The notes beneath the pieces are model-generated. The model was not told the DNA's origin, did not search any database, and was given only the letters and a program-made list of their open reading frames with translations. DNA of 64,000 nucleotides from positions 124,001 through 188,000 of the forward strand of contig NZ_CP113061.1 in assembly GCF_026625745.1 (NCBI RefSeq). Direction: 5' to 3'. A program made the translations under genes and the position numbers. Shown piece by piece: positions 12,339-16,411 of this stretch (position 1 is the stretch's first letter; every line of letters starts with the position of its first letter). The DNA comes from Asticcacaulis sp. SL142 (GTDB lineage: Bacteria > Pseudomonadota > Alphaproteobacteria > Caulobacterales > Caulobacteraceae).

Positions 12339-12414
12339 GGGCGAGTAGCTCAATGGTTAGAGCCGACCGCTCATAACGGTCTGGTTGGGGGTTCGAGTCC
12401 CTCCTCGCCTACCA
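12339..12414 (+). tRNA. tRNA with CAT anticodon, probably tRNA-Ile(CAU)
   Basis: A complete 76-nt cloverleaf with encoded CCA: acceptor GGGCGAG/CTCGCCT (G1-U72 wobble), D arm GCTC/GAGC, anticodon stem GACCG/CGGTC with loop CTCATAA, and T arm with TTCGAGT. The 8-base D loop (AATGGTTA) and the TGGTT variable loop resemble the lysidine-modified isoleucine tRNA more than elongator or initiator tRNA-Met. The 3' 17 bases are part of the duplicated attachment core of the element to its right. Confidence 0.9.
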
Positions 12415-12415
12415 C
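12398..12415 (+). repeat. Attachment core, left copy (in tRNA 3' end)
   Basis: TCCCTCCTCGCCTACCAC covers the 3' strand of the T arm, the acceptor stem and CCA of the tRNA. An identical 18-mer is at 14622-14639. Confidence 0.85.
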
Positions 12416-12476
12416 CCCATTTTCATCATTATATAGTATTGATTTTATTCAGTTTTTATTGAATAAAATTTTGCGA

Positions 12477-12531
12477 TGGTAGCAATGCGGTAGCAAAATG
12501 CGACTTTAGTGGTAGCAAAATGGTAGCAAAA
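12477..12531 (+). repeat. Integrase arm-type direct repeats, left end
   Basis: Four direct copies of (T/C)GGTAGCAA(AA) occur in 55 bp (12477, 12488, 12510, 12521). Copies with the same GGTAGCA core lie near the right end of the element. Short direct repeats inside both ends are typical arm sites bound by the integrase N-terminal domain; the function here is inferred. Confidence 0.6.
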
Positions 12532-12536
12532 AAAAT

Positions 12537-13268
12537 CTAAAGCTTGAAGCTCGGCATCATGTTTTCAAGCCACCGTTTGCGAACCGGATAGTCGGGCATG
12601 TGCTGGGTAACAAGCGCCCAAAAGGCATTCGTATGGTTGCGGTGGGTGAGATGGCACATCTCATGGAGCACAACATACTCAAGAACCGGGCGGGGAGCTT
12701 CTATAAGGTGCCAATTGATCCTAACGATACCGCCGCGCGTCAGGCTGCCCCATAATGTATCAGAATGTATGATCTGAACGCCCTTTGTGGTTAGACTCAG
12801 GGCTTTTTCATATCGGCGCACGAGTGTGGAAGCGTCTTTTTCCAGATAGGCTTTGAACCACTCAATCATGCGGTTGCTGAGAGCGGCATCTAAATCGGCA
12901 TCAGAAATGTGGCTGGGCGCAGTGATCTGGAATCCGCCATTAAACTGGATGTCAAAGTCCGCGACATCAGCGCGCCTTATGGTTAGTTTCGCGTTCCGAC
13001 CGCGAAACCTTATCTTTGCTCCAGACTGAAGGCGGTGATAACTATGGCGTTCAAGATACGCCAACCGCTCATTCATCTCGGTCAGCTTGTCGAAAACCCA
13101 GTGCCGCTTCTTATGAACGAATGCTGATATATCACTTTCAGGTGCGGTGTCAGGCGCGACCACTTCCACATGGTGCGGACGGACTATGATGCTTTTTTTC
13201 TGAGCAGATGAACTTCTGCGCACATCATAGGGGATCGTAACCTTGCCGATTTGAATATGATTCATCAC
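12537..13268 (-). CDS. YgjP-type zinc metalloprotease (COG1451/DUF45)
   Basis: A 243-residue cytoplasmic protein of the YgjP/DUF45 family. The zinc motif HEMCH (H202-H206) and the downstream NHTNAFWALVTQHMPDY block, with the third ligand region, are intact. The N-terminal half shows the family strand pattern (IPYDVRRSSSAQKKSIIVRP). Such genes are commonly found next to hsdR in type I restriction-modification loci, which supports the reading of the gene before it. Its start overlaps the end of that gene (ATGA), so both are co-translated. The biochemical role of the family is not settled. Confidence 0.88.
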   Translation of the reverse strand: MMNHIQIGKVTIPYDVRRSSSAQKKSIIVRPHHVEVVAPDTAPESDISAFVHKKRHWVFDKLTEMNERLAYLERHSYHRLQSGAKIRFRGRNAKLTIRRADVADFDIQFNGGFQITAPSHISDADLDAALSNRMIEWFKAYLEKDASTLVRRYEKALSLTTKGVQIIHSDTLWGSLTRGGIVRINWHLIEAPRPVLEYVVLHEMCHLTHRNHTNAFWALVTQHMPDYPVRKRWLENMMPSFKL

Positions 13269-14434
13269 TGGAATTTAGCATAATTCCTCGTGGCATATTC
13301 CTCGACGGGCACAGAAATTTCTTTGAAGGATTTCAGTTTAAGTTCGTGCGCAATAAGCCGAACCTGTTGGCGTAGTTCTTTTTTTAACTGATCGCGGGTC
13401 TGCCAGCCTTTAGGCGCTGTGTCATCGCCGCTATACAACCCGTCTACGCGCTCTGCGAAGGCTTTCATAGTTATCGCGTCCCCATCATCTTCAAGCCCCT
13501 CTACGAGCCTGAGAATGGCGTAGGCGCGCGCGTTCAATCCACTGGTCGCATGTGAGGCGTCTTCGGCTTCGAGGTCTTTGGCTTGCTGCTCCAAGGCGCT
13601 CAGGGCATCGGCGGCTGCCATTTGACCTTCCTGAAAACGCTTAAGGATAAAGGTGGAAGAAGAATTGGGTTTGGCTTCACCGATGAATTGATTGAAGTTT
13701 GAAATGACCAGTTCGTAACGCTGGATTTCATTTTTGTCGGCGGCAAGCTTAGGTCTGCTGGCTACCATCCGTGTGAAATATTGATTTAGCGTGTCAGCCT
13801 TTTTAGATGGATCAAGCATTGGGTTGAGCACAGCGCGGGGGGCTGCTGGTGTCACATGCTCAATAAAATCATGACTATCCATGACGCTGAGTTTGGATAT
13901 TAAGCGGTCACGGTGGATCGTCACCGTTCGGTCAATGCCGCGCTTAAAGATCACTAAAGCCGTGGCGTATAGCGTATCCCAAAGCTGGCTTTTAGGGCTG
14001 ATATGAATTCCACGATTGGCGCACCAGCGTCTAAATTCATTCGTCAAATCAGCTTCACCAGACGCTAGATATTCCAGCGTGTGTTTAGCGTCTATGGTTG
14101 GATCATTTAGCAACGGTGGGGCGACTGTGAATCGTGTCCGCAATTCATCCAACGCTTGAACCAACGCTTGTGTGACCGGTTCGTCAGGGTCTTTGACATC
14201 AGCATCATGAAACGGTTGGTTCAGGTTGACCGCATGTTGTGCAATGGCGATCCTGTTGTGACATTCGCGGATGATCGGTTCAGACTTTGAGAACGCTTCA
14301 CGCTGGTTAGATGTCTTCAATGAGCCTTGAAATTCCAGTCGGTTCATGATCGATTGAAGGGGCTTGGGAACCCTGACCCGATAGTAATATGTGCCGTTAC
14401 GGTTATAAATTTCATCAGATTTAGCGGGCATCAC
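13265..14434 (-). CDS. Integrase N-terminal half joined to an HsdR-like C-terminal tail
   Basis: A 389-residue open frame with two unlike halves. Residues 8-60 match the DUF6538 start of phage-type integrases (NGTYYYRVRVPKPLQ, LEFQGSLKTSNQREA), and about 175-250 look like the SAM-like core-binding domain (ADTLNQYFTRMVA, NEIQRYELVISNFNQFIGEA). The catalytic domain with its Arg-His-Arg-Tyr set is absent. From about residue 255 the text changes to EGQMAAADALSALEQQAKDL, SGLNARAYAILRLVEG and a helical end, resembling the C-terminus of type I restriction subunit HsdR. The in-frame junction is near 13650-13680. The HsdR match is from memory of the family and is the less certain half. Confidence 0.65.
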   Translation of the reverse strand: MMPAKSDEIYNRNGTYYYRVRVPKPLQSIMNRLEFQGSLKTSNQREAFSKSEPIIRECHNRIAIAQHAVNLNQPFHDADVKDPDEPVTQALVQALDELRTRFTVAPPLLNDPTIDAKHTLEYLASGEADLTNEFRRWCANRGIHISPKSQLWDTLYATALVIFKRGIDRTVTIHRDRLISKLSVMDSHDFIEHVTPAAPRAVLNPMLDPSKKADTLNQYFTRMVASRPKLAADKNEIQRYELVISNFNQFIGEAKPNSSSTFILKRFQEGQMAAADALSALEQQAKDLEAEDASHATSGLNARAYAILRLVEGLEDDGDAITMKAFAERVDGLYSGDDTAPKGWQTRDQLKKELRQQVRLIAHELKLKSFKEISVPVEEYATRNYAKFQ

Positions 14435-14516
14435 TTCACCATTTTGCGACCATTAAGGCGGCGCTTTACTATCAACCTTTAGTTATGGCGTTAATTGATG
14501 CGCTGTCAAACCTTAA

Positions 14517-14546
14517 TGGTAGCAAAAAATGGCGTTTGTGGTAGCA
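14517..14546 (+). repeat. Integrase arm-type direct repeats, right end
   Basis: Two copies of TGGTAGCA (14517 and 14539) and a weaker TTGGTAGGT at 14602 mirror the four copies at the left end. Confidence 0.5.
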
Positions 14547-14621
14547 GGTGGGTTGGAAAAAAATATAGTAAAATAAGTATGTTGGTGAAAAATATAGGCT
14601 TTTGGTAGGTATGAAAGGTTA

Positions 14622-14639
14622 TCCCTCCTCGCCTACCAC
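14622..14639 (+). repeat. Attachment core, right copy
   Basis: This is an exact 18-bp copy of the tRNA 3' end (TCCCTCCTCGCCTACCAC) outside any tRNA, the hallmark of site-specific integration. The region 14435-14621 before it is AT-rich and non-coding apart from the arm repeats. Confidence 0.85.
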
Positions 14640-14866
14640 TCATAAAATAGTATATTGAATTTATTGGGGTAAATTGGATTTGTTGCAAATCCGATGGCGA
14701 TATTTGTAACTTTACGTTCCTGATTTGGGCTTTTGGCGTTTATGGGTAGCTTCCCAGGCCATTACACCACCTCCATAACCGGCATGTGCCGAAGGTCAGC
14801 TTGGCGCGTGCAATCGCGTCGTGTATCAAAACGGTTGGGTCGAGCGGGCAAGGGGTGATTCCAAAT
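14640..14866. other. AT-rich non-coding stretch right of the attachment site
   Basis: No gene is seen. The first 30 bases (ATAGTAT...GATTTATT-like text) weakly resemble the bases just right of the left attachment core. A ribosome site for the next gene lies at its end (AAGGGGTG at 14851-14858). Confidence 0.4.
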
Positions 14867-15730
14867 ATGAAGGGCAAGATTACACAGACCCACCTCGCGA
14901 TTGCGATTTGCATAGCGATAAGTGTCGCGATCACCGCGGCATCGGTTCTGTACGTTAACGGCTTTTACGCGATGCGTGAAAACGCTTGGAAAGAATGGGC
15001 GATAACGGAAGTTTACAGGGGAAAGCAATTGCCCCCGGGAGATGTGCCCTGCGATCCGCAGGTTGATCTAAGAACCTCTGAGCTCTGTGCACAATGGAAA
15101 GCAGCAGATGCCGCCGCGACCAGCGCTAACTGGGCGATCGTGACGGCGATCACCTCTATGATTACGCTGATCGTCACCGCAGTAAGCATCTATTTTATTT
15201 GGGGCAGCTTGAGTGCATCCAGACATAGTCTGGATAATACCCGAAGGCAGAACATTCAGGAATTTAGGGCGTATCTTAGATTTGATTTTGCCGAGTTCAC
15301 CGAAGTTGGATTCAATATTGCGATTCCTACTATCACGGTTACCAACTATGGGCGGACAGAGGCGTGGAACTTGAGAGGAAGTTATTCTCTTATGGTCACG
15401 TTGGCGCAGCGACGGCCAGAAGCAGTTTTTATTGGACAAACTAGCTCGGTAACTGGAGATGTTTTTTGTCCTAATCAGATTCATAATGGTAGGCCCGAAG
15501 CCATCGAATACACTGATACATTCATCAATACTTCTGGCTTGCTGAGGGCTCGGGCAGGTATTGAAATTGAAAGTGCTGTAATGACAATCAGTGGGACATA
15601 TATAGATTTTATAGGTTCCGAGCGTAATTTTGTTGCTAGTCAGCGCTTCAGCATATCGATAGATGGCAGTGAATATCGACGCACATTTCGTCCAGTCAAC
15701 AATATTGGTGAAATTCTCATACGTGTTTGA
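14867..15730 (+). CDS. Hypothetical two-TM membrane protein
   Basis: A 287-residue protein with start ATG at 14867, 8 bases behind AAGGGGTG; an earlier in-frame ATG at 14786 lacks such a site. It has two membrane segments (about residues 8-31 and 88-112) enclosing a loop with two Cys (PCDPQVD, SELCAQW). A C-terminal domain of about 170 residues follows, probably cytoplasmic and beta-rich (LRFDFAEFTEVGFNIAIPTITVTNYGRTEAWNL in pieces). No family was recognised with certainty. Codon use is AT-richer than neighbours, which points to acquired DNA. It lies between the tRNA element and the SLATT gene. Confidence 0.7.
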   Translation: MKGKITQTHLAIAICIAISVAITAASVLYVNGFYAMRENAWKEWAITEVYRGKQLPPGDVPCDPQVDLRTSELCAQWKAADAAATSANWAIVTAITSMITLIVTAVSIYFIWGSLSASRHSLDNTRRQNIQEFRAYLRFDFAEFTEVGFNIAIPTITVTNYGRTEAWNLRGSYSLMVTLAQRRPEAVFIGQTSSVTGDVFCPNQIHNGRPEAIEYTDTFINTSGLLRARAGIEIESAVMTISGTYIDFIGSERNFVASQRFSISIDGSEYRRTFRPVNNIGEILIRV

Positions 15731-15907
15731 CGTTACTGATTTCTTTTTGTTTCCCATCACCCTCAACATCCCTTCCGGTCGGGGGCGGGTTGGGCGCCGA
15801 CTTCGTTGTGGCGGGTGCCATGGACCAAGGCTATGACCGGCGCGAGGAATTCCGACCACTTAGGCCGGAAGAAATTCTGGTGTTGGCGTTTTTGAAAAAG
15901 CGGCTGG

Positions 15908-16411
15908 TTACGTGAGTTTATGAGCCGCTTTTTTGATAGCGCGGTCCCAGATGTTTTGCGGCACGGCCGGGGCGGTTTCGGACAGGTCGGCCAGCTTGGC
16001 AATCAACTCGCTCAAACCCGCTTCGGTGCGTGATTTTAGGGTCACGATCTCTAGCTGGCGGCGCAGGCTGGTATAGGCATTGGCGGCATTGAGATGCTGC
16101 TGCGACCGCTCCGACCAGCGTAAAGACGCCTGAAGGATCGAGGTCACGGACACCAGCCCGCCAAGGATAAACAGCAGCAGGCTGACCGTGTCTTTGTTGG
16201 CCTCATAGCCACCCGGCACCACGATCGGAAGGGCCGCCAGCAGCGATACCACAAACCCGCCCATCAGGTTGAACAGCATCAGCGTGCGGGACAGGGATTC
16301 AAAAACCTGGGTCGCTTCCCAATGGGCGTGCTGGGCATGGCTGATGCGGGTTTGGGTCTCCCGCAGGATGCGCGCAAAATCCGCCTCAGTCCCCGTCGTT
16401 ACGCTGTCCAT
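15908..16411 (-). CDS. SLATT-domain 2TM protein
   Basis: A 167-residue protein matching the SLATT layout (SMODS/SLOG-associating two-TM effector): an N-terminal amphipathic helix, a tight pair of membrane helices (about 43-65 and 73-95), and a C-terminal helix with RWSERSQQHLNAANAYTSLRRQLE. SLATT proteins are predicted membrane-perturbing effectors in nucleotide-signal defence systems, but no SMODS or SLOG partner gene is beside it, so it stands as an orphan. Its ATG at 16411 faces the SMP-30 gene, 104 bp apart. Family assignment is from the pattern, without alignment. Confidence 0.65.
   Translation of the reverse strand: MDSVTTGTEADFARILRETQTRISHAQHAHWEATQVFESLSRTLMLFNLMGGFVVSLLAALPIVVPGGYEANKDTVSLLLFILGGLVSVTSILQASLRWSERSQQHLNAANAYTSLRRQLEIVTLKSRTEAGLSELIAKLADLSETAPAVPQNIWDRAIKKAAHKLT

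Follow-up and report, generated by a model that had tools for sequence, protein, structure and literature searches.

The window, by which we mean the whole 64,000-nucleotide stretch of Asticcacaulis sp. SL142 analysed here, contains what is very probably a type I restriction-modification island that has collapsed through an internal deletion running from the integrase gene into hsdR. The 2.2 kb scar lies beside a tRNA gene and carries two overlapping ORFs on the minus strand, a chimera of an integrase and HsdR and the gene of a YgjP-like metallopeptidase. The features are as follows.

12339..12414, plus strand: CAT-anticodon tRNA, the proposed insertion site (ARAGORN; a tRNA at least 94.7% identical is found in 25/25 genus loci, host included)
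12398..12415, plus strand: attachment repeat in the tRNA 3' end (exact 18-bp copy)
12488..12531, plus strand: three boxes resembling TGGTAGCAAAA, putative arm sites for the integrase (up to one mismatch)
12537..13268, minus strand: ygjP, encoding a YgjP-like metallopeptidase of 243 residues with an HExxH motif (HEMCH; PF01863)
13265..14434, minus strand: chimeric ORF of 389 residues, integrase N-terminus and HsdR C-terminus in frame (ORF list, Pfam, profiles)
13268..13648, minus strand: HsdR C-terminal part, residues 263-389 (HsdR homologues, profiles)
13649..13666, minus strand: joint between integrase and HsdR, residues 257-262 (profiles, column comparison, shuffle test)
13667..14434, minus strand: integrase part, residues 1-256, with DUF6538 and the start of the core-binding domain (Pfam, profiles)
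14442..14452, minus strand: TGGTAGCAAAA-like box in inverted orientation, immediately upstream of the chimeric ORF (up to one mismatch)
14517..14527, plus strand: TGGTAGCAAAA box near the distal end (up to one mismatch)
14622..14639, plus strand: distal attachment repeat (exact 18-bp copy)
15864..15911, plus strand: topoisomerase IB remnant outside the island, comprising the final 17 codons (48 bp, 93.75% identical to the gene in L045)

The 389-residue ORF is a real chimera, and we could establish its two parts, their source families and the joint between them. The original prediction held that the ORF starts as a DUF6538 integrase, and Pfam indeed places DUF6538 at residues 9-60 (E 9.5e-12, above the cut-off). 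A profile of eight DUF6538 integrases, taken from the fetched loci, matches residues 5-256, with a mean alignment accuracy of only 0.62, and a core-binding profile made from 10 integrases matches residues 212-256. The score of the latter on residues 200-262 was reached by none of 1868 scored shuffles, and that on residues 196-389 by 2/1682, in agreement with the prediction that the integrase text ends inside the core-binding domain. The core-binding segment alone matched no Pfam family. We found no Pfam match to the catalytic domain of phage integrases (PF00589) in the chimera at E values up to 1; a 587-residue relative from Aeromonas matches PF00589 just under the cut-off.

The remainder of the ORF resembles the C-terminus of HsdR, again as predicted. 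A profile of HsdR C-termini, built on 12 of 13 collected stretches (G026 was among the 13 twice), matches residues 261-387 at E 2.9e-36 (one-sequence database). In Pfam the tail alone reaches T1RH-like_C (PF11867) at E 0.0016, below the family cut-off. The part retained corresponds to the region from about residue 880-890 to the end of an HsdR of about 1010 residues; the nuclease and helicase domains are absent and only the last approximately 127 residues are left. A Rhizobium protein that matches the tail carries an HsdR annotation. Ten places in nine genomes, from other genera of the family, match residues 203-387 only, and all ten sit inside open frames of 1020-1061 codons.

In an ungapped column comparison, HsdR positions that are for the most part invariant differ from the chimera through residue 262 and agree with it from residue 263. 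The joint is placed at codons 257-262 because the integrase signal ends and the agreement with HsdR starts there, close to the boundary at residue 255 that had been predicted. Local alignments of 3/13 HsdR stretches extend back to residue 192 of the chimera, and a short stretch of the multiple alignment gave the same impression. This candidate extension was dropped because the gapped columns did no better than shuffles: the HsdR columns preceding the tail, with gaps allowed, gave no signal on residues 200-262, and 602/1889 shuffles equalled the score.

Using the whole chimera as query we found matches in 4/61 relatives, 11/390 family genomes and 4/385 genomes of a class sample; each count includes the host, and the genome sets overlap. 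In all three sets, every match outside the host is confined to residues 3-99 or 203-389. Two of 72,556 plasmid records match, one per half, and none of 50,697 phages does (tblastn). No protein spanning both halves was found in the 390 family genomes, the 385-genome class sample, the plasmids or the phages. A single-protein scan, which detects close relatives only, gave no close relative of the chimera or of YgjP in genome contigs and no relative of the integrase part or of YgjP in viral contigs. The integrase half has no close relative in the genomes or viral contigs searched. A single match of the chimera in PHROGs (E 0.27) was taken as chance and PADLOC gave none; against solved structures the tail matched ADP-ribosylhydrolases only, at E 0.033 and worse, which was also taken as chance.

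The ORF that follows the chimera, with a 4-nt overlap, encodes the predicted YgjP-type protease. Its product matches PF01863 at E 1.9e-48 over profile positions 4-206 of 207, that is, the whole domain, and the metallopeptidase of the island is apparently intact. Its one PADLOC match, to the model of a type II enzyme, was weak (E 0.016), and solved structures gave none.

The prediction also stated that YgjP often sits after hsdR, and this was borne out in all 12 intact loci fetched (G026, a plasmid of Rhizobium sp. BG4 and ten further stretches). In these, hsdM, hsdR and ygjP occur in a constant order (12/12), and hsdS could be scored in 11/12. It should be noted that the operon table omits hsd and ygjP matches shorter than 120 residues, and that other ORFs may intervene, as in G464. 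In G026, hsdR and ygjP overlap by 4 nt, the same as in the window. The record of the Rhizobium sp. BG4 plasmid annotates M, S and R genes and a SprT-family metalloprotease, and there the hsdR and protease genes do not overlap. A tRNA-Gln lies beside the operon in G464, but its 3' end was not found a second time in the fetched stretch, and the two are therefore regarded as no more than neighbours. A DUF6538-type integrase match was found in 2/12 intact operon stretches, nearly full length in G139 and restricted to the C-terminal end in contig 16 of G177; the link between the operon and such integrases is thus real but not general. The constant pairing of hsdR and ygjP is, in our view, a more interesting general point than the scar itself. 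A metallopeptidase that follows a restriction subunit may limit restriction of the host's own DNA, which is a testable question.

Insertion of the island at the CAT tRNA, which ARAGORN labels Met and the original prediction took for tRNA-Ile, is strongly indicated. The 3' end of the tRNA is repeated at the far boundary, as expected of a tRNA-integrated island, and the two 18-bp repeats (TCCCTCCTCGCCTACCAC) at 12398-12415 and 14622-14639 are identical and enclose the 2.2 kb scar; the attachment repeats are thus intact, as had been claimed. The 17-bp core of the repeat occurs at these 2 places only in the 64 kb window with up to three mismatches allowed, where 0.11 chance matches are expected. 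In addition, five TGGTAGCAAAA-like boxes occur in the 64 kb at up to one mismatch (0.66 expected). All are inside the island, no further than approximately 120 bp from the first repeat or 180 bp from the second. Elements mobilized by tyrosine recombinases are typically built of such repeats with nearby boxes, and the boxes are probably arm sites of the integrase. The GC content of the island is 0.48-0.53, lower than the 0.58-0.59 of the flanks, which fits a foreign origin.

The tRNA is present in 25/25 genus loci, and island proteins lie beside it in the host only, some stretches being short at contig ends. None of 24 congeners has a match to the island proteins at the site, over a minimum of 3 kb past the tRNA. 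The closest relatives, G013, G002 and G004, have the tRNA together with both flanks but no island. The original prediction looked to the same tRNA in related genomes for an intact island; the comparison showed that the site lacks the island in 24/24 congeners, but an intact one was found in none of them.

Between the tRNA and the right flank, G013 and G002 have a small unrelated ORF and an ORF of 356 residues, and the same 356-residue protein is found in G004. We read it as topoisomerase IB, a reading of the relatives' ORF rather than the result of a family search. A match to this gene occurs in 20/25 genus genomes, as a fragment only in G009. No match to it was found elsewhere in the host genome at E 0.01. 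The host gap at 14640-15863 is filled by an ORF at 14786-15730, for which a search of 390 family genomes gave weak relatives in 5 besides the host. The repeats bound the 2.2 kb scar that had been claimed, but the rearrangement continues beyond 14639 as far as 15863 and there adjoins the final 17 codons of the lost gene; this neighbouring reduction had been missed. The topoisomerase IB remnant belongs to the same rearranged hotspot, and because the topoisomerase gene was lost and an extra ORF occupies the gap, the hotspot has been rearranged more than once. Just beyond, a small ORF at 15908-16411 of the window has a weak match to SLATT_4 (E 0.028) and is conserved in G013, G002 and G004.

In the series of events that we favor, an integrase-borne island with a type I operon in the order hsdM-hsdS-hsdR-ygjP would have entered the 3' end of the CAT tRNA. 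An internal deletion would then have taken the integrase from the core-binding domain onward, hsdM, hsdS and the first approximately 880-890 residues of HsdR. The broken int and hsdR would have joined in frame, with ygjP remaining whole behind them. The identity of head and tail argues for the predicted deletion from int into hsdR, as does the gene order, since HsdR C-terminal sequence is followed by ygjP as in intact relatives. No ORF of the size of hsdM or hsdS is found in the island besides the two described. However, no intact parent was found at the tRNA, so we infer the deletion itself, its being one single event and the gene content of the parent island. We counted as evidence against this reading that both ORFs are open and that ygjP is undamaged.

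With the nuclease, motor, methyltransferase and specificity parts lost, the remnant should be unable to restrict or modify DNA; it should also be incapable of excising itself because its integrase has no catalytic domain. The scar is most likely young and non-functional.

As the searches turned up neither an intact parent at this tRNA nor anything closely related to the integrase half, head and tail may come from two elements. The joint would then result from recombination at one hotspot between an integrase-bearing element and an hsdR-ygjP remnant. The three closest relatives carry different cargo at the hotspot, other rearrangements there include loss of topoisomerase IB in the host and in G009, and the scarcity of DUF6538-type integrases in the intact operon stretches (two of the 12) points the same way. 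Yet one pair of attachment repeats encloses both halves of the chimera, and both halves have comparable GC3 values (0.50 and 0.56, vs 0.66-0.75 in three flanking genes). We consider such an origin unlikely.

The original prediction had offered the alternative that the chimera is retained as a working DNA-binding protein. Its DUF6538 half would bind the TGGTAGCAAAA boxes and the HsdR tail would dock on a methyltransferase or on YgjP. The two open, overlapping frames would suit such a protein, as would the grouping of the five boxes at the island ends, one of them just upstream of the chimeric ORF. The fold prediction for residues 261-389 is of good confidence (block pLDDT 68-95); HsdR is absent among the fold matches listed for the tail model. 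A further type I locus lies at 2.80 Mb of the host genome. Its ORFs look whole, judged by their length, and the methyltransferase alone was checked by profile. Two N6_Mtase genes were found in the host by profile, both outside the island. Nevertheless, the chimera is known from one genome only and its joint falls inside the core-binding domain of the integrase. Since the closest relatives have no island at the site, the scar may be too recent to show visible decay. Low dN/dS relative to a second remnant, in the congener G016, covers only the end of hsdR and the start of ygjP and for the most part reflects the period in which both were intact. Retention of the chimera as a working protein thus appears quite improbable. 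A new two-gene unit, in which the DUF6538-HsdR-tail protein binds the boxes at either end of the island, serves there as a repressor or anchor, and acts together with the YgjP protease, we regard as very improbable.

That the ORF is one continuous unrelated family merely resembling both halves draws on the raw Pfam match of the tail being under the curated cut-off, and is already refuted within the sets searched, where the tail profile match is strong, the integrase signal runs up to the joint, no HsdR signal precedes it and no full-length relative was found, leaving this reading with next to no probability. The two outcomes that the original prediction had set against itself, a continuous 389-residue family and a tail lacking HsdR similarity, thus did not appear in the sets searched.

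The remnant in G016 (L019 1-1631) consists of the last hsdR codons followed by approximately 79 ygjP codons, with a tRNA-Gln beyond, and shares 79% DNA identity with the window over 294 bp. It is another decayed fragment from one and the same hsdR-ygjP lineage. Between the two remnants, dN is 0.12 and dS 1.42 over 75 ygjP codons, and dN is 0.08 and dS 1.33 over 21 hsdR codons (NG86). Because dN is well below dS, most of this divergence accrued under selection, presumably before either copy broke; the dS values above 1 are near saturation, and the dN/dS is uninformative on present selection. The stretch preceding the hsdR end in G016 is transposase-like in our reading, and PHROGs gave nothing useful for it. 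We also considered whether a minus-strand gene by the tRNA-Gln is an integrase cut in the same way. The candidate is weak and was rejected: 5/1249 shuffles reach its core-binding score, 529/1735 reach its whole-integrase score, and neither Pfam nor PHROGs gave a useful family.

The host is not alone in having a truncated integrase, because in G009 (L116 7794-8182) the start of a DUF6538 integrase is joined out of frame to the end of topoisomerase IB. The ORFs adjoining that joint resemble, in our own reading, phage terminase and portal genes. Altogether 15 DUF6538 places occur in 11/25 genus genomes, nine of them in open frames of fewer than 500 codons, counted without regard to contig ends.

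Decayed genomic islands and defective integrative elements typically keep their attachment repeats, have a truncated integrase and have lost part of their cargo. The scar has the same traits and differs in that two broken genes are joined in frame. With DUF6538 tyrosine recombinases of islands the chimera shares the DUF6538 N-terminal domain, the start of the core-binding domain and the flanking attachment repeats; in contrast to them it is without a catalytic domain. With type I HsdR it shares the last approximately 127 residues and the position directly before ygjP, whereas the nuclease and motor parts (approximately 880-890 residues) are missing and neither hsdM nor hsdS adjoins it. Deprived of the other domains, the tail in the window is left with no known catalytic part. 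Among solved structures, the relative of the intact G026 homologue is EcoR124I HsdR, which G026 matches over residues 95-667 only, and the tail in the window could not be mapped onto the solved C-terminal domain of EcoR124I. For EcoR124I, the C-terminal helical domain of HsdR is described as a proposed contact to the methyltransferase and as having a role in translocation, cleavage and ATPase activity (PMC5248579).

The scar is a clear though unremarkable example of island decay and not a new system. It shows the decay of a defence island with close boundaries: the genes for restriction and modification have gone, whereas the attachment ends persist together with the last gene. At 2.80-2.82 Mb of the host genome, a DUF6538 fragment lies approximately 10 kb from the other type I restriction-modification locus (L115 562-7734 and 17123-17212), with a tRNA-Ser beside the fragment.
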